Origin: Phytoactinopolyspora halotolerans
GTDB taxonomy: Bacteria; Actinomycetota; Actinomycetes; Jiangellales; Jiangellaceae
Length of the DNA: 64,000 bases
Reading direction: 5' to 3'
NCBI RefSeq assembly: GCF_010550675.1
Contig: NZ_JAAGOA010000002.1
Location: forward strand, 1 to 64,000
Shown: positions 5,721 to 14,610 of the stretch, one piece after another
Numbering within the stretch: position 1 is the stretch's first letter
Layout: each line of letters begins with the position of its first letter
Position numbers and translations under genes: made by a program
The notes under the pieces: model-generated
What the model was told of the DNA's origin: nothing
Databases searched by the model: none
What the model saw: only the letters and a program-made list of their open reading frames with translations

Positions 5721-5799
5721 CATTCGACACAATACAATCACGCTGTGTGACTAGCTGGTCACAATGCGTGACTGTCGGCGAACGACAACTTGCAGGCAC

Positions 5800-5824
5800 A
5801 AAAAGGCACGAACGGCGCCCGTGC
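5800..5824 (-). terminator. Rho-independent terminator of the small peptide gene
   Basis: Read on the minus strand, GCACG (5824-5820) and CGTGC (5810-5806) flank a 9-nt loop and are followed by C and five T (5804-5800). It lies about 50 nt past the stop of the 42-codon peptide gene. It supports independent transcription of that gene and also separates it from hisC, which is read in the opposite direction. Confidence 0.65.
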
Positions 5825-5874
5825 GTTCGGGGGGCGAGACGCAGGACGCCGTCCGTGCGCCATCGATAGTACTG

Positions 5875-6003
5875 CTAGCAGCACATCCCTGGCCAGTCGG
5901 GTTGAACCGGGGCGGCGGAAGCAGGCGTGGCCACGATGGCCGCCGTCGCCGTCAGAGTCAGGGCAGCGAGCGTTACAGCCACAACACGCCTGAGACGGGC
6001 CAC
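5875..6003 (-). CDS. Small secreted pre-peptide (42 aa), candidate signal peptide precursor
   Basis: This short gene is usually missed by length cut-offs. A GTG start at 6003 is preceded by a perfect GGAGG nine bases upstream. The product has a basic N-terminus (residues 3-6, RLRR), a hydrophobic core (7-25) and a clean signal peptidase I site ATPASA|A after residue 30. The predicted mature peptide is 12 residues, APVQPDWPGMCC, ending in two cysteines. A T-tailed terminator follows. The gene is divergent, 66 bp from an HTH-TPR regulator. That layout is the one used by RRNPP systems, where an exported peptide re-enters or binds the TPR regulator; the function here is inference. It could otherwise be a small exported protein of unrelated role. 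Confidence 0.7.
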   Translation of the reverse strand: MARLRRVVAVTLAALTLTATAAIVATPASAAPVQPDWPGMCC

Positions 6004-6046
6004 TGCGATCAACCTCCGGGGGTCTACATAGGACTAGCGAAAAATG

Positions 6047-6058
6047 ACTACCTGTAGT
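6047..6058. promoter_or_regulatory. Inverted repeat between peptide gene and HTH-TPR regulator
   Basis: ACTAC-CT-GTAGT is a perfect 5-bp inverted repeat centred 17 bp before the regulator ATG and 50 bp before the peptide GTG. Size and place fit a dimeric HTH (XRE-type) operator controlling both divergent genes. No binding data; inferred from symmetry and position. Confidence 0.5.
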
Positions 6059-6069
6059 GCAATAGTGTC

Positions 6070-7461
6070 ATGACAGATGAGCCACAAGCAACACTTGACG
6101 AGGCGCCCGCCCCAACACCTGTCGGGCAGCGTATCCGTACGCGCAGGTTGGAGTTGGGTCTCTCGCAAGCCGATATTGCCGAGGGAATGCTGTCGCCCAG
6201 CTATGTGTCGCTTGTCGAGAGTGGTCGTCGTCAGCCAGCTGCCGCGGCGCTCGCGCATATTGCTGAGCGTCTGCGTATCGATGTCGAATACCTCCGGGAC
6301 GGTGTCGACGCGTCGATCCGTACCCGCGCGCGCCTGGCGCTCGGGCGTGCGGAGAAGGCGCTGTATGACGGCAACGCCGAGGAGGCCTACGACAACTTCT
6401 CGCTTCTTGTCGGGGATCCGGGTCTGAACGACGAGCAGAGCCGGCGTGCGCGCCTCGGGCAGGCGCTCGCGCTGGAGCGCAAGGGCGATCTGGAGAGCGC
6501 GATCGAGCTTCTCGGGGAGTTGGCCGAAGAGGCACGGCAGAACCCGGAGGTACAGCCGTGGCTCGACGTGGCGCTGGCCATGTCCCGCTGCTACCAGAGC
6601 GCCGGGGATCTCGACATGGCGATCCAGATCGGCGAAGAGGCGATGCGTGCGGCTCAAGAGATCGGGCTGGAGCACACGGACGAGTACGTCCGTCTGGGCT
6701 GCACCGTGCTCAGCGCCTACCACGGCCGCGGAGACATCGTCCGATCCCGTACGCTCGCCGCCGACCTGGTGCGGGCGGCCGACCAGATGGGCGCCCCGCA
6801 CACTCGTGGCGCTGCCTACTGGAACGCGTCGGTCATCGCCGAGTCGCGCGGTGACCTCGCGCAGGCACTCGATCTTGTGGATCGGGCGCTCGCCTTGTTC
6901 GGTGAAGGCGACGACCGCCGTAACCTGGCTCGTCTGCGTATCGCCTACGCCTGGTTGCTGCTCCAGGGTGAGGAGCCGCGGGCCAGCGACGCGTTGCAGT
7001 TGCTCGATGGTGCTCGGGAAGAGATCACCACCTACGGCGGCGTGGACGACATCCGGCATTTCGACAGCACGCGCGCGGACGCACTCCTCGCGCTCGGCCG
7101 CCTCGATGAGGCGCACGAGGCCGCGACGGCCGCCTTGCGCGACCTCGGCGACCAGCCCCGGATGGAGTCGGCGCGGGCACGGCTGGTGCTTGCTCGGGTG
7201 CTCCGGGCCGAGGGCGACGTCGATCAGAGTGCACGTGAGGGAGCGCTGGCGGCGTCGATGCTCGAAGCCATGGGCGCTTCTCGCCGGGCTGCGGCCGCGT
7301 GGCGCGAGCTGGGTGACCTCTACCGTGACCTGGGACGTACCGACGAGGCGCTGGAGGCGTTCGACCGGGCGCTGCAGTCGATGCGGATCATGCATTCGGT
7401 CGGTGCAGGTGTGGTACTGGATGCTCCCGCTGAGCGGCGGAGCGAGCTGGCCCTGCACTGA
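6070..7461 (+). CDS. XRE-family HTH regulator with C-terminal TPR domain
   Basis: Residues 18-77 form a Cro/C1-type helix-turn-helix (GQRIRTRRLELGLSQADIA, then the recognition helix near SPSYVSLVESGRR). Residues ~85-445 are helical TPR-like repeats with many A-x-x-x-G-D/N turns such as GDLESAIELL, GDLDMAIQI, GDLAQALDL and GRTDEALEAF. HTH plus TPR is the architecture of RRNPP peptide-responsive regulators and of several actinobacterial developmental regulators. No Shine-Dalgarno is seen before the ATG, so the mRNA may be leaderless. The divergent small secreted-peptide gene and a shared inverted repeat suggest the peptide may be its ligand, which is inference. Confidence 0.9.
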   Translation: MTDEPQATLDEAPAPTPVGQRIRTRRLELGLSQADIAEGMLSPSYVSLVESGRRQPAAAALAHIAERLRIDVEYLRDGVDASIRTRARLALGRAEKALYDGNAEEAYDNFSLLVGDPGLNDEQSRRARLGQALALERKGDLESAIELLGELAEEARQNPEVQPWLDVALAMSRCYQSAGDLDMAIQIGEEAMRAAQEIGLEHTDEYVRLGCTVLSAYHGRGDIVRSRTLAADLVRAADQMGAPHTRGAAYWNASVIAESRGDLAQALDLVDRALALFGEGDDRRNLARLRIAYAWLLLQGEEPRASDALQLLDGAREEITTYGGVDDIRHFDSTRADALLALGRLDEAHEAATAALRDLGDQPRMESARARLVLARVLRAEGDVDQSAREGALAASMLEAMGASRRAAAAWRELGDLYRDLGRTDEALEAFDRALQSMRIMHSVGAGVVLDAPAERRSELALH

Positions 7462-7689: not shown

Positions 7690-7905
7690 CGCCGGCCGAG
7701 AGCGCGACTCGGCGCGGTGGGTCGCGTACAGGGAACCCGGTGTGAGTCCGGGACTGCCCCGCAGCGGTGAACGGGAACGACCGCCGTCAAACAAGCACTG
7801 GGACACCTCGGTCTCCACCGAGCGGGCTCGGGAAGCGACGGCCAGTAGGTGGTGCCACCAGCCAGGTGGTCGCCGGGCCCGTGAGTCCGAATACCTGCCG
7901 GTTGC
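7690..7905 (+). promoter_or_regulatory. Cobalamin (B12) riboswitch upstream of nrdAB
   Basis: Conserved class elements appear in order: AGGGAA (7730-7735), GGTGTGAGTCC (7739-7749), CTGCCCCGCAGCGGTGA (7754-7770), a variable paired arm, the B12-box-like GGCCAGTAGG (7840-7849) and a closing GTGAGTCCGAATACCTGCC (7881-7899). Outer boundaries are approximate. It sits in a ~450-nt leader ending at the nrdA GTG. Streptomyces class I nrdAB is known to be repressed by B12 through such a riboswitch, so the B12-dependent class II enzyme is favoured when cobalamin is present. The same logic is expected here. About 190 nt of leader remain as the expression platform. Confidence 0.9.
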
Positions 7906-8092: not shown

Positions 8093-10630
8093 GTGAATAT
8101 CACTGTCGTCAAGCGGGATGGAACCGCTGAACCGTACGACGGTCGCAAGATCGCCCGCACCATAGCGGAAGCCGCCGTCGGTCTGGATGACCGGTTCGGC
8201 CGCGCCGCGCAAGTCCGATCAGAACTGGAACTCACCCTCTTCGACGGCATCACCAGCGAGCAGCTGACGGAAGCCGCCATTCAGGTCGCGTTGCAGAACG
8301 TCAAGGAGGATCCAGCGTTCGACACCGTCGCCGCGCGGATGCTGTGCACGACCATGTACCGGCGTGTCCTCGGTGACCACCGGACTCCCGACGATCTCCG
8401 CGCCCTGCACACGTCCCGGTTCGCCGGCTACATCCGCCGGGCGGTCGCCGACGGCGTGCTGGACGCGCGGCTGGGCAGGGCGTTCGACCTGGACCGCCTG
8501 GCGGCGGCCCTGGATCCCGGACGCGACGAGTCGCTTCGGTACATCGGCGTGGTCACCTTGCGTCATCGGTACATGGTGAACGCCCCGGACGGCGCGCCGA
8601 TCGAAGTGCCGCAGTTCTTCTGGATGCGGGTGGCGATGGGGCTGGCGCTGAACGAAGCCGACCCTACGTCGTCGGCGCTGGCCTGCTATGAGCGGATGTC
8701 CCGTCTGGAGTACCTTCCGGCCGGTTCGACACTGGTCAATGCCGGGACCGCGCATGCCCAACTGTCCAACTGCTTCGTGCTGGAGATGGACGACGAGATC
8801 GAGCACATCGCGAAGAGCATCCGCGACGTGATGTGGCTGACCAAGGGCACCGGCGGCATCGGGCTGTCGGTGACCAAGCTGCGTGCCGAAGGGTCGCCGA
8901 TCCGGAGTAACAGCACGACGTCGACCGGGCCGATCCCGTTCATGCATACGGTCGACTCCACGTTGCGCGCGGTCTCCCGTGGCGGGAAGAAGTTCGGCGC
9001 GCTGTGTTTCTACATGGAGAACTGGCATCTGGACTTCCCCCAATTCCTGGACCTGCGACAGAACTCTGGCGACCCGTACCGTCGTACCCGTACGGCGAAC
9101 ACCGCGGTCTGGATCTCAGACGAGTTCATGAAGCGGGTGGCCGACGACGCCGACTGGTACCTGTTCGATCCGCTCGAAGCCGCTGACCTCGCCGAGCTCT
9201 ATGGGGCGCAGTTCTCCCGACGCTACGCCGAGTACGTGAGGAAGGCGGAGGCCGGCGAACTGCGGACGTTCGCGAAGGTCCGCGCCAGGGAGCAGTTCAG
9301 GGCGATGGTGCTGAGCCTGCAGACCACCTCGCACCCCTGGTTGACGTGGAAGGACCCGATCAACAACCGCGCGCTGAACAACAACACCGGGACGATCCAT
9401 CTGTCGAATCTCTGCACCGAGATCTGCCTGCCGCAAGACAAGGAGAACATCGCGGTGTGCAACCTGGCGTCGATCAATCTCGTCCGCCACCTCGAGGCGG
9501 GCCGGTTCGACTGGGACCGGTTGGCGCAGACTGTTCGCCTGGCGGTGCGGCAGTTGGACAACCTCATCGACATCACCGTCTCGTCGGTGCCGGAGGCGGA
9601 GCGGTCCAATGAACTGAACCGAGCCGTCGGGCTGGGCGTCATGGGCTTCGCGGAGGTGGTCGAGCGGCTCGGATGGTCCTACCAGAGCGAGTTCGCCTAC
9701 GAGCTGATCGATGAGCTGATGGAGTTCATCAGCTGGCACGCGATCGACGCGAGTGCCGATCTGGCCCGTGAGCGTGGTGCCTATCCCAACTTCAGCGGTT
9801 CGCGGTGGAGCGAGGGGATCGTGCCGATCGACACCGTCGACCTCGCCGAGCAACAGCGCGGCGTCGCGGTGACGGTGTCACGTACCAGCAGGATGGACTG
9901 GGAACGGCTGCGGCGAAAGGTGCGCGGCGGCATCCGTAACGCGACTCTGCTGGCGATCGCGCCCACCGCGTCCATCGGGCTGGTGGCGGGGACGACGCCC
10001 GGATTGGACCCGCGCTTCACCCAGATCTTCAGCCGGGCCACGAGCTCCGGCAAGTTCCTGGAGGTGAACCAGAACCTGGTGGCCGCGCTGAAAGCGCGTG
10101 GGTTGTGGGAGTCGGTCCGTGACGACGTGCTGCGGGCGCAGGGCGACGTGGCGTCGTTGCCGGACGTTCCGGACACGCTGAAGGCGGTCTACAAGACCTC
10201 GTTCCAGCTGTCTCCGTACGCGTTCCTCGAGGTGGCGGCCCGTGCTCAGAAGTGGGTCGACCAGGCGATCAGTCGGAACATGTACCTGGAGACGAGGGAC
10301 CCTGACGAGACGATGGAGATCTACGCCGCCGCCTGGGCCAAGGGCATGAAGACCACCTACTACCTGCACATGAAGCCACGTCACACAGCTGAACAGAGCA
10401 CCGTGCGGGTGAACAAGGCGGAGTCGTCGACCATGGCTCGTGCCGCCACGGTGACCGCGGTGGCCTCGTCGTCGGCGGAATCCGGGGCAAGCGATGCGAC
10501 GAGGGGCACCGGAACCCGCGCCCGGAGGGCCGCGGGGCGTGGCTTCGGCTTCCAGGAGGTTGATGTCGTCGCCGATGTCGCGTGCCCCGTCGACCCGCAA
10601 GAACACCTGGAATGCGAGGCCTGCCAGTAG
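8093..10630 (+). CDS. nrdA: Class I ribonucleotide reductase, large subunit
   Basis: NrdA (845 aa) reduces ribonucleotides to deoxyribonucleotides. An N-terminal ATP-cone (about 1-90) gives allosteric activity control. Active-site residues are visible: Cys227 (SNCFVL), Asn439-Leu-Cys441-Thr-Glu443, Cys456 (AVCNLAS) and the radical-transfer pair Tyr756-Tyr757 (TTYYLHMKPRH). The C-terminal redox pair is C841-EA-C844. An Ala/Ser-rich linker (about 775-815) joins the core to the tail and is longer than in E. coli. GTG start at 8093 has GAAGGAGG 4 bp upstream. Expression is controlled by the upstream cobalamin riboswitch; nrdB follows 131 bp downstream. Confidence 0.97.
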   Translation: MNITVVKRDGTAEPYDGRKIARTIAEAAVGLDDRFGRAAQVRSELELTLFDGITSEQLTEAAIQVALQNVKEDPAFDTVAARMLCTTMYRRVLGDHRTPDDLRALHTSRFAGYIRRAVADGVLDARLGRAFDLDRLAAALDPGRDESLRYIGVVTLRHRYMVNAPDGAPIEVPQFFWMRVAMGLALNEADPTSSALACYERMSRLEYLPAGSTLVNAGTAHAQLSNCFVLEMDDEIEHIAKSIRDVMWLTKGTGGIGLSVTKLRAEGSPIRSNSTTSTGPIPFMHTVDSTLRAVSRGGKKFGALCFYMENWHLDFPQFLDLRQNSGDPYRRTRTANTAVWISDEFMKRVADDADWYLFDPLEAADLAELYGAQFSRRYAEYVRKAEAGELRTFAKVRAREQFRAMVLSLQTTSHPWLTWKDPINNRALNNNTGTIHLSNLCTEICLPQDKENIAVCNLASINLVRHLEAGRFDWDRLAQTVRLAVRQLDNLIDITVSSVPEAERSNELNRAVGLGVMGFAEVVERLGWSYQSEFAYELIDELMEFISWHAIDASADLARERGAYPNFSGSRWSEGIVPIDTVDLAEQQRGVAVTVSRTSRMDWERLRRKVRGGIRNATLLAIAPTASIGLVAGTTPGLDPRFTQIFSRATSSGKFLEVNQNLVAALKARGLWESVRDDVLRAQGDVASLPDVPDTLKAVYKTSFQLSPYAFLEVAARAQKWVDQAISRNMYLETRDPDETMEIYAAAWAKGMKTTYYLHMKPRHTAEQSTVRVNKAESSTMARAATVTAVASSSAESGASDATRGTGTRARRAAGRGFGFQEVDVVADVACPVDPQEHLECEACQ

Positions 10631-10761
10631 GCGAGTCCACCGCGCCCGCGCCACCGCCCGGGTGGCCGGCTACGGCCCGCCGACGATCGCCTGCCTGACG
10701 ACGCCCGTCGGCGATGGCCTCGCCAGAGCCACCGGCTCAGACAACCAAGGAGCACACCACG

Positions 10762-11757
10762 ATGAAGACGATCTTGGGAACCGGCATCCAGGAAGGGCTG
10801 CTGCTGAAACCGGTCCGCTACCCGTGGGCCTACGACCTGTACAACCAAGCCGTGGCGAATACCTGGTTCCCGCACGAGGTCCAGCTCGGAGAGGACCTTG
10901 CGGACTTCAAGCGTATGACGGCGGAGGAGCGGCATGCGTTGACGTTCCTCATGAGCTACTTCAACCCGAACGAACTTCTGGTCAACAAGGCGTTGGCGTA
11001 CGGCGTCTACCCCTACCTGAACGCGGCCGAGACGCATCTCTACCTGGCCAAGCAGATGTGGGAGGAAGCCAACCACGTGATGGCCTTCGAGTACGTCCTG
11101 GAGACCTTCCCCATCGACCGGCACCAGGCGTATCAGGCGCATGTGGACGAGCCCTCTATGGCGGCCAAGGAGGAGTTCGAGGTCCGCTACATCCGACGGA
11201 TGACCGAGCAACCCCTGGACATCGGCACCACCGAGGGCAAGCGGGATTTCGTCCGCAACCTGGTCGCCTACAACATCGTCTTGGAGGGGATCTGGTTCTA
11301 CAGCGGCTTCATGGTGGCGTTGAGTTTCCGGCAGCGGAATCTGCTGCGGAACTTCGCTTCGCTGATCGACTGGATCGTGCGGGATGAGAGCCTGCATCTG
11401 AAGTTCGGGATCAACCTGATTCTCACCGTCTTGGACGAGAATCCCGATCTGCGCACGGAGACGTTCGCCGTCGAGATCAAGCAGATGATCCTCGATGGTG
11501 TGGCCATGGAGGAGCGGTACAACCGGGATCTGTTACCACGCGGCATCCTGGGGATGAACGCGGAATACATCAACAGCTACGTGAAGTATCTCGCCGATCG
11601 GCGCTTGGAGGAGCTTGGCTTCGGTCCGCATTACAAGGTCGCCAATCCGGCGAAATGGATGGCTGCCGCGAACGACACGCTCGAGCTGGTCAACTTCTTC
11701 GAATCGATCAACACAAGCTACGAGGTCGACGTCCGTGCAGATGGCCGAGGCCCGTGA
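10762..11757 (+). CDS. nrdB: Class Ic-type ribonucleotide reductase, small subunit
   Basis: Small subunit (331 aa) that houses the metal cofactor and starts the radical chain for NrdA. Metal ligands read as Glu71, Glu102, His105, Glu175, Glu209 and His212. The position of the radical tyrosine (His+4) is Phe109, inside EEANHVMAFEYV. As I recall the Chlamydia class Ic enzyme (E89, E120, H123, F127, E193, E227, H230), every position matches with a constant offset of 18. A tyrosine-free Mn/Fe cofactor is therefore likely. The C-terminal Tyr for radical transfer (SYEVD) is kept. ATG 10762 has AAGGAG upstream. Confidence 0.95.
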   Translation: MKTILGTGIQEGLLLKPVRYPWAYDLYNQAVANTWFPHEVQLGEDLADFKRMTAEERHALTFLMSYFNPNELLVNKALAYGVYPYLNAAETHLYLAKQMWEEANHVMAFEYVLETFPIDRHQAYQAHVDEPSMAAKEEFEVRYIRRMTEQPLDIGTTEGKRDFVRNLVAYNIVLEGIWFYSGFMVALSFRQRNLLRNFASLIDWIVRDESLHLKFGINLILTVLDENPDLRTETFAVEIKQMILDGVAMEERYNRDLLPRGILGMNAEYINSYVKYLADRRLEELGFGPHYKVANPAKWMAAANDTLELVNFFESINTSYEVDVRADGRGP

Positions 11758-11943: not shown

Positions 11944-12885
11944 GTGTCGGGCACAAAGTTCGGTAGGCCGAAGTTTGGTCTTTGGCATACCGGACTCTTG
12001 ACTTCGGCTCTCGTTATGTCGGCCTGTGGGGGTGATGTCGCGGCCGTCGACCCCGACGACGGCCGGCTCAAGGTGGTCACGACGTTCACCGTGTTGGCCG
12101 ACATCGCGCAGAACGTCGGCGGCGACGGCGTCGTCGTCGAATCGATCACCAAACCGGGCATGGAGATCCATGGCTACGAACCGACCCCGAGCGACGTGCG
12201 GCGGGTGGCGGACGCCGACCTCGTCCTGTACAACGGGCTCGGCCTGGAACTGTGGTTCTCCGACTTCATGGCCAGGATCGACGCGCCGAGCGCAGTGGTG
12301 ACGGACGGAATCGACACGCTCCCCATCGCCTCCGGCGATTACGCGGGCGATGCCAACCCACACGCCTGGATGTCCCCGCTCAACGTCGCGATCTACGCCC
12401 GGAACATCGCGGACGCTCTCGCGGAGATCGACCCCGGCGGCGGCGACCGGTACGAGGCCAACGCCGCCGCCTACGCGGACGAGGTCGCCGACGTGCAGGA
12501 GACGTTGCTGGCCGGTGTGGCCGAACTGCCGCCTCATCAGCGCGCGCTGGTCACATGTGAGGGCGCGTTCTCGTACCTCGCCGCCGATGCCGGCCTCACC
12601 GAGGTCTACCTGTGGCCGGTCAACAGCGACGTGCAAGGGACACCACGACAGGTCACGGGTGCGATCGAGTACGTACGACAGCACGACGTCCCCGCGGTGT
12701 TCTGCGAGTCGACGGTCAGCGACGAGCTCCAGCGGCAGGTCGCCCGCGACGCGGGCGCCGCGTTCGGTGGGGTGCTGTACGTCGACTCGTTGTCCGAGGA
12801 GGACGGCCCCGTACCGACGTACCTGGATCTGATCCGTCGTGACGTCGCGACGATCATCGCCGGTCTGAACGGGCAGGGGAGCTGA
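11944..12885 (+). CDS. Manganese-type ABC transporter substrate-binding lipoprotein
   Basis: Cluster A-I metal-binding protein (313 aa). The lipobox LVMSAC places the lipidated Cys at 28. Likely metal ligands are His76 (EIHGYEP), His140 (NPHAWM), Glu206 (CEGAFSY) and Asp281 (YVDSL). The His-His-Glu-Asp set is that of Mn/Fe binders such as PsaA and MntC, while zinc binders have a third His. A TAGGCT -10 (11904-11909) stands 35 bp before the GTG, which has GAGGTGGAG upstream. ATPase, permease and an MntR-like regulator follow in order, so the whole block reads as a manganese importer under its own sensor. Confidence 0.9.
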   Translation: MSGTKFGRPKFGLWHTGLLTSALVMSACGGDVAAVDPDDGRLKVVTTFTVLADIAQNVGGDGVVVESITKPGMEIHGYEPTPSDVRRVADADLVLYNGLGLELWFSDFMARIDAPSAVVTDGIDTLPIASGDYAGDANPHAWMSPLNVAIYARNIADALAEIDPGGGDRYEANAAAYADEVADVQETLLAGVAELPPHQRALVTCEGAFSYLAADAGLTEVYLWPVNSDVQGTPRQVTGAIEYVRQHDVPAVFCESTVSDELQRQVARDAGAAFGGVLYVDSLSEEDGPVPTYLDLIRRDVATIIAGLNGQGS

Positions 12886-12892
12886 TGCTTGC

Positions 12893-13759
12893 GTGAAACG
12901 CGACGACGACGCGGCGGCGGCCGACGGTCCCGGCGTGCATCTCAGGCGAGCCGGTACCGGCGCAGGGCAGGCTCCCCCAGGCGGAAGGACGGGCGCCGAT
13001 GAGCGGATAGGCGCCGACGCGGAGACGAAGCCCGACGTGGTGGTCGAGCTGTCGGGCGTGAGCGTCAGCTACGGGGATGTCGTCGCGCTGGACGGGGTGT
13101 CGCTACAGCTGGGCGCGGGCCGCATCTGCGCGCTCATCGGGATGAACGGCTCGGGCAAGTCGACGCTGTTCAAGACCGTGATGGGGCTGCTGCGTCCACA
13201 CGACGGGGTGGTGCGCCTGTTCGGCGCGGATCCGGCGCGCAGCCGCCGCGCGGGGGAGGTCGCGTACGTGCCGCAGGCGGAGAACGTCGACTGGGACTTC
13301 CCGCTCCGGGTGCGCGACGTCGTGACCATGGGCCGGTACGGTCGGATGTCGCCGCTTCGACGTGCGCGTGCGGCCGATCGCATCGCCGTCGACGACGCGC
13401 TCGACCAGGCGGATCTGGCCGGCCTCGCGGACCGGCAGATCGGCGAGCTCTCCGGCGGTCAGCGCCGGCGCGTCTTCCTGGCGCGCGGGATCGCTCAGGG
13501 CGCCCGGCTGCTGCTGCTCGACGAGCCGTTCTCCGGGGTGGACAAGCGGTCCGAGGCCACCATGTCGGAACTGTTGCGACGTCGTGCCGACGACGGTTGT
13601 GCCGTGCTGGTCGCTACGCATGACCTCGACGCGGTCCCCGACCTCGCGGATGAGGCCATCCTCCTGCACCGGCGGGTGCTGATGCACACGACGCCGGACG
13701 AGGCGCTGCGCCCGGAGAATCTGGCGCTGGCGTTCCACGGTGGGGAGGCTCGGGCGTGA
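12893..13759 (+). CDS. Metal ABC transporter ATP-binding protein
   Basis: ATPase (288 aa) of the manganese-type importer. Walker A GMNGSGKST, signature LSGGQRRR and Walker B LLLLDEPF are all intact, with a switch His in ATHDLD. The ABC core starts near residue 45. The first ~44 residues (Asp/Gly/Ala-rich) are an unusual extension from the GTG start, and no better in-frame start is obvious. It begins 8 bp after the lipoprotein gene and overlaps the permease gene by 4 bp. Confidence 0.92.
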   Translation: MKRDDDAAAADGPGVHLRRAGTGAGQAPPGGRTGADERIGADAETKPDVVVELSGVSVSYGDVVALDGVSLQLGAGRICALIGMNGSGKSTLFKTVMGLLRPHDGVVRLFGADPARSRRAGEVAYVPQAENVDWDFPLRVRDVVTMGRYGRMSPLRRARAADRIAVDDALDQADLAGLADRQIGELSGGQRRRVFLARGIAQGARLLLLDEPFSGVDKRSEATMSELLRRRADDGCAVLVATHDLDAVPDLADEAILLHRRVLMHTTPDEALRPENLALAFHGGEARA

Positions 13760-14610
13760 TCGAGTTCCTCGTCGACCCGGTGCAGTTCGGGGTGATGCAG
13801 CGGGCGTTCCTGGTCACCATCGTGGCGAGCGCCGTCTGCGCCCTGTTGTCCTGCTGGCTGGTGCTGATCGGATGGTCCCTGATGGGGGACGCGGTCTCGC
13901 ATGCCGTGGTGCCGGGGGTGGTGCTCGCGTACCTCGCGGGCGCGCCGTTCGCTCTCGGAGCGTTCGCGTTCGGCTGCGCCGCGGTCTGGCTGATCGGGAC
14001 GGTGCGACAGACCTCGCGCGTCAAGGAGGACGCCGCCATCGGGGTGGTGTTCACCACGCTGTTCGCCTTCGGGCTGGTGCTGATCTCGGTCACGCCCAGT
14101 GAGGTCGACTTCAACCACATCCTCTTCGGTAACGTGCTAGGCGTTTCCGACACGGACCTCGCCCAGGTGCTGGTGCTGGGCCTTCTGACGGCGGCGACAC
14201 TGGTGCTGAAGAGTCGTGACCTCACGCTCTACGCGTTCGACGCCGGCCATGCGCACGCCATCGGTATCAGCCCCCGTCGGTTGCAGCTCCTCCTGCTGGC
14301 GTTGCTGGCGCTCACCGTCGTGGTCGCGCTGCAGGCCGTCGGGGTGATCCTCGTCGTCGCGATGGTCATCACCCCTGGCGCTACCGCATACCTGCTGACC
14401 GCCAGGATGGAGCGGATGCTGCTGCTGGCGCCGTCGTCCGCGATCGGCTGTGCCATCGTGGGCCTGTACTACTCGTACTATGCCGATGTGTCGTCGGGCG
14501 GTGCCGTGGTTCTCGCCCAGGGGCTGCTGTTCTTCGCCGTCTATCTGCTGGCGCCGCGGGGTCTGGCTGGGCTGCGCCGGCTGCGGCCACGGCGGACGGT
14601 CAGGCCGTGA
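13756..14610 (+). CDS. Metal ABC transporter permease (ABC-3 family)
   Basis: Integral membrane subunit (284 aa) with eight or nine hydrophobic segments, typical in length for ZnuB/MntB permeases. The conserved early stretch LIGWSLMGDAVSHAVVPGVVLAY, which in this family includes a His lining the path, is seen at about residues 37-60. The GTG start overlaps the ATPase stop (GTGA). It completes a three-gene importer whose solute-binding protein has manganese-type ligands. Confidence 0.92.
   Translation: MIEFLVDPVQFGVMQRAFLVTIVASAVCALLSCWLVLIGWSLMGDAVSHAVVPGVVLAYLAGAPFALGAFAFGCAAVWLIGTVRQTSRVKEDAAIGVVFTTLFAFGLVLISVTPSEVDFNHILFGNVLGVSDTDLAQVLVLGLLTAATLVLKSRDLTLYAFDAGHAHAIGISPRRLQLLLLALLALTVVVALQAVGVILVVAMVITPGATAYLLTARMERMLLLAPSSAIGCAIVGLYYSYYADVSSGGAVVLAQGLLFFAVYLLAPRGLAGLRRLRPRRTVRP

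Follow-up and report, generated by a model that had tools for sequence, protein, structure and literature searches.

An exported peptide with a Cys-Cys end beside a divergent HTH-TPR regulator: a candidate RRNPP-like module in Phytoactinopolyspora halotolerans and other Actinomycetes

The window considered here is a stretch of 64,000 nucleotides from Phytoactinopolyspora halotolerans (contig NZ_JAAGOA010000002.1, positions 1 to 64,000), and all coordinates refer to this stretch (Table 1). It carries a very short gene on the minus strand that lies back to back with the gene of a regulator. The full product of the short gene is MARLRRVVAVTLAALTLTATAAIVATPASA followed, after the predicted cleavage point, by APVQPDWPGMCC; its A-x-A cleavage site was assigned by eye, and the export of small ORFs in general was judged by a rule based on charge and hydrophobicity. 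The hairpin behind this gene, described as a T-tailed terminator in an earlier note made from the sequence alone, is borne out by its fold energy (-41.2 kcal/mol for 5796-5868, z -4.76 against 200 shuffles) and by a consensus scan for terminators, which also picks up a shorter form of it. The peptide gene converges on hisC, its neighbour on the side away from the regulator. Beyond the regulator, the ribonucleotide reductase genes led by a cobalamin riboswitch likely encode a B12-repressed, B12-independent enzyme.

Table 1. Features of the peptide-regulator locus and its surroundings, in window coordinates
Feature	Position	Strand	Remarks
Intrinsic terminator of the peptide gene	stem 5806-5858	-	long GC-rich hairpin, T tail to about 5800
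Pro-peptide gene	5875-6003	-	42 codons, GTG start at 6003, stop 5875-5877
12-residue tail APVQPDWPGMCC	5878-5913	-	Cys-Cys at end
Sec-type signal peptide, predicted	residues 1-30, 5914-6003	-	charged N-terminus, hydrophobic stretch, A-x-A site
Shine-Dalgarno GGAGG of the peptide gene	6013-6017	-	
Candidate operator/promoter block	6045-6069		between the divergent genes; conserved; contains palindrome 6047-6058
HTH-TPR regulator, putative peptide receptor	6070-7461	+	463 aa, divergent to the peptide gene
Regulator HTH	6133-6294	+	HTH_3 at residues 22-75
Regulator TPR superhelix	about 6304-7422	+	TPR matches to about residue 440
Cobalamin riboswitch	7707-7903	+	Rfam RF00174; downstream of the regulator
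Ribonucleotide reductase large subunit gene	8093-10630	+	
Ribonucleotide reductase small subunit gene	10714-11757	+	
ZnuA-like binding protein, ATPase and ABC-3 permease genes	11944-14610	+	behind the reductase genes

Domain searches confirmed the divergent gene as that of an HTH-TPR regulator, with an HTH_3 domain followed by TPR repeats. Its four named close relatives all come from Phytoactinopolyspora (87-93% identity). When solved structures were searched with a profile of the family, PlcR came out ahead of all other natural HTH-TPR proteins, at E 1.4e-15 over residues 14-200; a single-sequence search of the PDB reached just HTH domains and repeat proteins, PlcR being absent and the DNA-binding domain of ComR (E 8e-4) being the only hit among HTH-TPR families. 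Models named for RRNPP receptors exist, and none of them is among the Pfam or NCBIfam matches of the regulator, the best NCBIfam match being to the NsdA family of TPR-like regulators, at 32 bits against a cut-off of 75. The predicted structure is made of helical repeats (mean pLDDT 76, the HTH mostly below 55, from a shallow alignment of 5 sequences). Among the 50 structural matches listed for this model, most Rap and NprR structures and an arbitrium receptor align over 335-353 residues with Z of 19-25 (Rap and NprR at 20-25), two Rap structures align over 295 and 301 residues, and LGN, MalT and APC subunits match at an equal Z level; PlcR, ComR, Rgg and PrgX do not appear among these 50, an absence to which we attach no weight.

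The regulator is present in 21 of 22 Jiangellaceae genomes, with one match each (E <= 1e-40), and a divergent small frame with a signal sequence and a Cys-Cys end accompanies it in 20 of the 21 loci; at the remaining one (L034), the contig gives just about 200 nt upstream of the regulator. The small frame is thus kept in all 20 family loci open to inspection, and the Cys-Cys end is invariant in them. The excess of synonymous substitutions that the earlier note had proposed to look for was found: pN/pS is 0.27 across six Phytoactinopolyspora-type sequences, where 17 first, 9 second and 33 third codon positions vary, and 0.45 across ten Jiangella-type sequences, where the corresponding numbers are 17, 17 and 29. 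The small frame is under purifying selection. GGAG stands within 20 nt 5' of the start in 19 of the 20 loci, the exception being L033 with GGGGG. Four loci (L021, L023, L027 and L030) have an additional exported CC peptide downstream of the regulator and convergent to it; its sequence differs from that of the first (ends SDFCC, SLYCC, SDYCC), and these loci are candidates for having two signals per receptor.

Between the two genes lies the ACTAC-CT-GTAGT palindrome ACTACCTGTAGT (6047-6058), to which the earlier note had drawn attention. The site is there and is the sole perfect ACTACNNGTAGT in the 7.3-Mb genome, where the reversed reading of this pattern occurs 17 times, but its exact form is not conserved: the palindrome is perfect in only 5 of the 20 Jiangellaceae loci, while L019 has ACTACGTGTTGT and the Jiangella-type loci have GACTGACTGTAGTC or similar. 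The exact palindrome was therefore rejected as a family-wide operator. A longer intergenic block, TGACT...TGT.GT.CAATA.TGTCATG, is common to all 20 loci, and we infer that the regulator binds the conserved block at 6045-6069.

Outside the family, the distribution of the regulator is patchy: a sample of 393 class genomes gave 54 with a match (E <= 1e-50), Jiangellaceae accounting for 21. An exported CC-ending peptide is adjacent to 24 of the 35 class-wide regulators outside Jiangellaceae, in divergent orientation in 16 cases, convergent behind the regulator in 7 and on the same strand in one (L085). At five other class loci, a divergent exported ORF ends differently (in GW..PG at three of them), and no exported small ORF was found at the remaining six of the 35, relaxed rules included. 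In family f26, 37 of 149 genomes have a regulator match (E <= 1e-60); of the 51 matches, 30 were fetched as loci, and 24 of these carry a CC peptide by the uniform rule, or 25 when counting L142, which this rule missed and which was taken as CC in the residue comparison, tree and tail counts below. All are convergent behind the regulator, and tandem copies occur in L133 (two) and L135 (three). In family f17, 71 of 120 genomes have a match (E <= 1e-100); 30 of the 84 matches were fetched and 11 of these were omitted as copies of class loci, which left 19 loci, 14 with a CC peptide, always divergent, and three with another peptide type (one a copy). One copy, L184 (the same as L064), stayed among the 19, and without it the count is 14 of 18. 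Five f26 loci, like L184, coincide with class loci, and five f14 loci that were fetched twice were counted once. Altogether, CC peptides were found in nine families (f1, f9, f14, f17, f20, f25, f26, f27 and f38).

The Nonomuraea gerenzanensis locus L112 also carries a CC peptide, and six of seven relatives from the plasmid collection, in which 7 of 16 matching records were examined, have none (Streptomyces L108-L111 and L113, Streptosporangium L114). In the phylum sample, the regulator was found in 6 of 296 genomes besides that of the window (E <= 1e-60), and all six regulators of the other actinobacterial classes (L210-L215) have a short divergent exported peptide, the ends of which (FPWGGT, FPGP, FPWPK, YPWPK, KWPWG and NWPHVP) are mostly FPW-like. 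Among 20 more distant regulator matches, four have a CC-ending peptide and three have CC inside the last seven residues (L229 WCCDAIPA, L233 WCCG, L236 GCCR), which may reflect trimming or variation of the CC end. None of the 11 members of an f17 paralog group (L217-L227) has a CC-ending peptide beside the regulator, so these are possible orphan receptors, and two further matches of the 20 have no CC peptide. At the six loci from viral contigs the matches are of HTH length only, and the sole match in the phage collection, an unverified faecal contig the end of which cuts the regulator short, has no exported small ORF in the available sequence.

Control DNA gave no such peptides: in 400 kb taken from 20 of the genomes already used, 128 small ORFs have a signal-peptide-like sequence and not one of them ends in CC, nor did the flanks fetched for 13 further XRE-type loci contain a CC-ending exported small ORF. 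Together with conservation and purifying selection, these counts rule out a chance ORF and confirm the 42-codon gene as the earlier note had drawn it, with its GGAGG, GTG start, signal peptide and 12-residue CC tail. In f26, the direct repeat TTG[AC]C-N4..7-TTG[AC]C stands upstream of 12 of 23 peptide genes (for example in L123, L132, L138, L140, L149 and L151), whereas it is absent from all 468 control tiles and shuffling gives a mean of 0.05; as the pattern was picked post hoc and many rows are close kin, we take it as a lead only to a candidate peptide-gene operator. Peptide promoters also score above genomic tiles, which were not promoter-matched, for a motif derived from regulator promoters of f26, a result to which we give no weight.

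The mature part of the peptide is variable: the 86 CC peptides compared, which come from 79 loci (copies L122-L125 and L134 left out), show 78 different sequences in their last eight residues. Its end is not random, with W, Y, F or M directly before CC in 61 of the 86 peptides. A variable mature part with a fixed end fits what pheromones would show. On a tree of 111 regulators, obtained by a quick search, with several long branches and without the copies L122-L125, L134 and L184 and the partial L213, 20 changes suffice for a label that combines peptide type with gene arrangement, against a mean of 52.8 for shuffled labels and a minimum of four. This small number of changes indicates that the association is inherited and that the gene order changed more than once while the pair stayed intact, and survival of the pairing through rearrangements across Actinomycetes argues for a functional link.

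The regulators were then compared according to the presence (84) or absence (34) of a CC peptide, six copies being included (L122-L125, L134 and L184). R173 and W251 are invariant in all 84 regulators with CC peptides, and G188, T212, N252 and N285 are found in 80, 79, 79 and 75 of the 84 versus 11, 13, 17 and 8 of the 34 without, kinship being ignored in this comparison. In the model, R173 is on helix 161-178, T212 on 204-220, N252 on 243-259 and N285 on 283-297; judging by the alternation of helices, these helices would open successive repeats, and the four residues would line the interior of the superhelix. The nearly invariant Cys174 of the regulator was considered as a partner of the peptide cysteines and rejected, because it does not track CC: it is absent in 13 of the 84 CC regulators and present in 29 of the 34 others.

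As for known systems, the available text on RRNPP_detector asks for a Sec-exported propeptide of 10-100 aa encoded next to a receptor that is 250-500 aa long and has peptide-binding TPRs (PMC10075063). The window pair, with its 463-aa HTH-TPR receptor and adjoining 42-aa pro-peptide predicted to be exported, fits this definition as given there, and by its anatomy would work like an RRNPP pair, with or without shared descent. PlcR of the Bacillus cereus group similarly has an XRE-type HTH followed by TPRs, and PapR is a short exported pro-peptide encoded adjacent to the PlcR gene; however, the solved PlcR chain is 293 aa long, the match spans only residues 14-200 of our regulator, the phylum is another one and, to our knowledge, PapR has no Cys-Cys end. 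In the NprR-NprX and Rap-Phr systems of Bacillus, the long TPR superhelix is of similar size and some structures are peptide-bound, at 8-12% identity to the regulator, and we know of no Phr or NprX peptide ending in CC. Rap has no HTH, according to the part of the source available (PMC9765709). Neither an Rgg nor a ComR model is among the Pfam or NCBIfam matches of our regulator. The ComR-ComS and Rgg-SHP systems of Streptococcus also place an HTH-TPR regulator beside a short pro-peptide, and the ComS signal has aromatic residues near its end, in which it resembles the peptides of L210-L215; ComS and SHP peptides are, as far as we know, without CC. NsdA, an actinobacterial regulator, is a TPR protein like ours, and we know of no exported peptide described for it.

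Taken together, we consider that the two genes probably form an RRNPP-like peptide-pheromone system of Actinomycetota, the signal of which has a fixed Cys-Cys end. The earlier note had proposed that the exported peptide is the ligand of the TPR regulator, and this gains support from the conservation of the small frame, the non-random tail and the pairing across gene orders; the adjacency of CC peptide and regulator in the family, the class, f26 and f17, against zero in the controls, also counts for a signalling module, as does the finding that no third gene is widely common to 80 loci compared over short flanks. Weighing against it are the loci without a CC peptide (11 of the 35 class loci, six of the seven plasmid relatives and all 11 of the f17 paralog group), the patchy distribution of the regulator, the absence of RRNPP-named models among its matches and of PlcR from the single-sequence search, the many other proteins that the TPR fold matches just as well, and the failure of Cys174 to track CC. 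The small gene would make a pro-peptide exported via the Sec pathway, from which signal peptidase would leave a short Cys-Cys-ended peptide with, in most cases, an aromatic residue or Met before CC. This peptide would build up outside with cell number or in a confined space, and an oligopeptide ABC importer would return it to the cytoplasm (the genome has 35 SBP_bac_5 peptide-binding-protein matches), where it would dock in the concave TPR groove of the neighbouring HTH regulator. Docking would alter the hold of the regulator on the operator between the two genes, and the outcome would be a switch of the peptide gene and of the regulator gene itself, perhaps with few targets besides. How the peptide is cut, returned and held in the groove, which way the regulation runs and what the Cys-Cys does are what we infer; the Cys-Cys may be a recognition element, the redox state of which differs outside and inside the cell, oxidation being possible outside and reduction inside.

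The same arrangement could be produced by an exported effector, a metal- or thiol-binding peptide or a small antimicrobial, that is controlled by the regulator without being its ligand, the TPR domain sensing something else. Adjacency and co-inheritance suit any pair of regulator and target, a Cys-Cys is able to bind metal or to form disulfides, and, 4.5 kb downstream of the regulator, the window encodes a ZnuA-like metal ABC transporter. However, the mature part varies strongly; apart from the two terminal residues nothing in it is fixed, and the one before them is in most cases aromatic or Met, which is less than one would expect of an active core, and some lineages swap CC for other ends (GW..PG in 3 of 5 class loci) while their regulators differ at the conserved TPR positions, kinship again being ignored; we regard an effector as unlikely.

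A precursor of a ribosomal, post-translationally modified peptide, for instance with a disulfide or thioether ring, under local regulation, is less likely and in our estimate highly improbable. Short genes with a fixed Cys-containing end do resemble some precursors, but the Sec-type signal peptide is not a typical RiPP leader, and in 80 loci, most with flanks of 1.5-4 kb, no modifying enzyme was seen to return from one family to the next. No third gene of any kind is widely common across families beside the pair in these 80 loci, six of which are copies of other rows or of class loci; the neighbours gave scattered matches only, some to ABC ATPases. Finally, Cys leader peptides occur in actinobacteria, and the two terminal Cys codons with a terminator just 3' of the frame could recall a cysteine-sensing leader in which ribosome stalling leads to attenuation, but we rejected this scarcely credible reading on orientation, since such a leader should be on the same strand as its target and upstream of it, whereas hisC, next past the terminator, sits on the opposite strand. 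In f26, moreover, the peptide gene faces the 3' end of the regulator in 24 of 24 CC loci, and a frame that converges on the regulator in this way cannot be the leader of its transcript. The signal sequence is also conserved and selected.

If the peptide is indeed a pheromone, a wider and more speculative proposal, which we advance as doubtful, is that of an old pheromone family of Actinomycetota extending across classes, with Cys-Cys in most Actinomycetes bearers acting as a redox gate: the vicinal cysteines would be oxidised outside and reduced in the cytoplasm, and the TPR regulator would recognise the peptide only after import and in its reduced form. In other classes, FPW-type ends would be used with the same receptor family. 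If true, this would be quorum sensing by a peptide with a redox gate built in.

In the text available from three publications (PMC10075063, PMC9765709 and PMC13220807), cytoplasmic peptide-receptor quorum sensing is presented as a trait of Bacillota, and one of the three gives actinobacterial signals as typically small molecules. Judging by the same kind of partial text, two RRNPP surveys examined Bacillota and their mobile elements or viruses, and a 2026 review describes the RRNPP family for Bacillota. The earlier note knew of no such module established in this kind of organism, and our search of the open-licence literature, PMC6540685 included, likewise found none in the text available; subscription papers and preprints were beyond its scope and an earlier mention is possible. 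The pair looks like a form of peptide signalling that has hitherto been described chiefly in Bacillus and related bacteria. As the candidate module spans at least nine families of Actinomycetes and its putative ligands can be synthesised from sequence, it would offer a direct test of peptide communication in a phylum to which many antibiotics are owed, and perhaps a route to waking silent traits. The invariant Cys-Cys end raises a clear chemical question.
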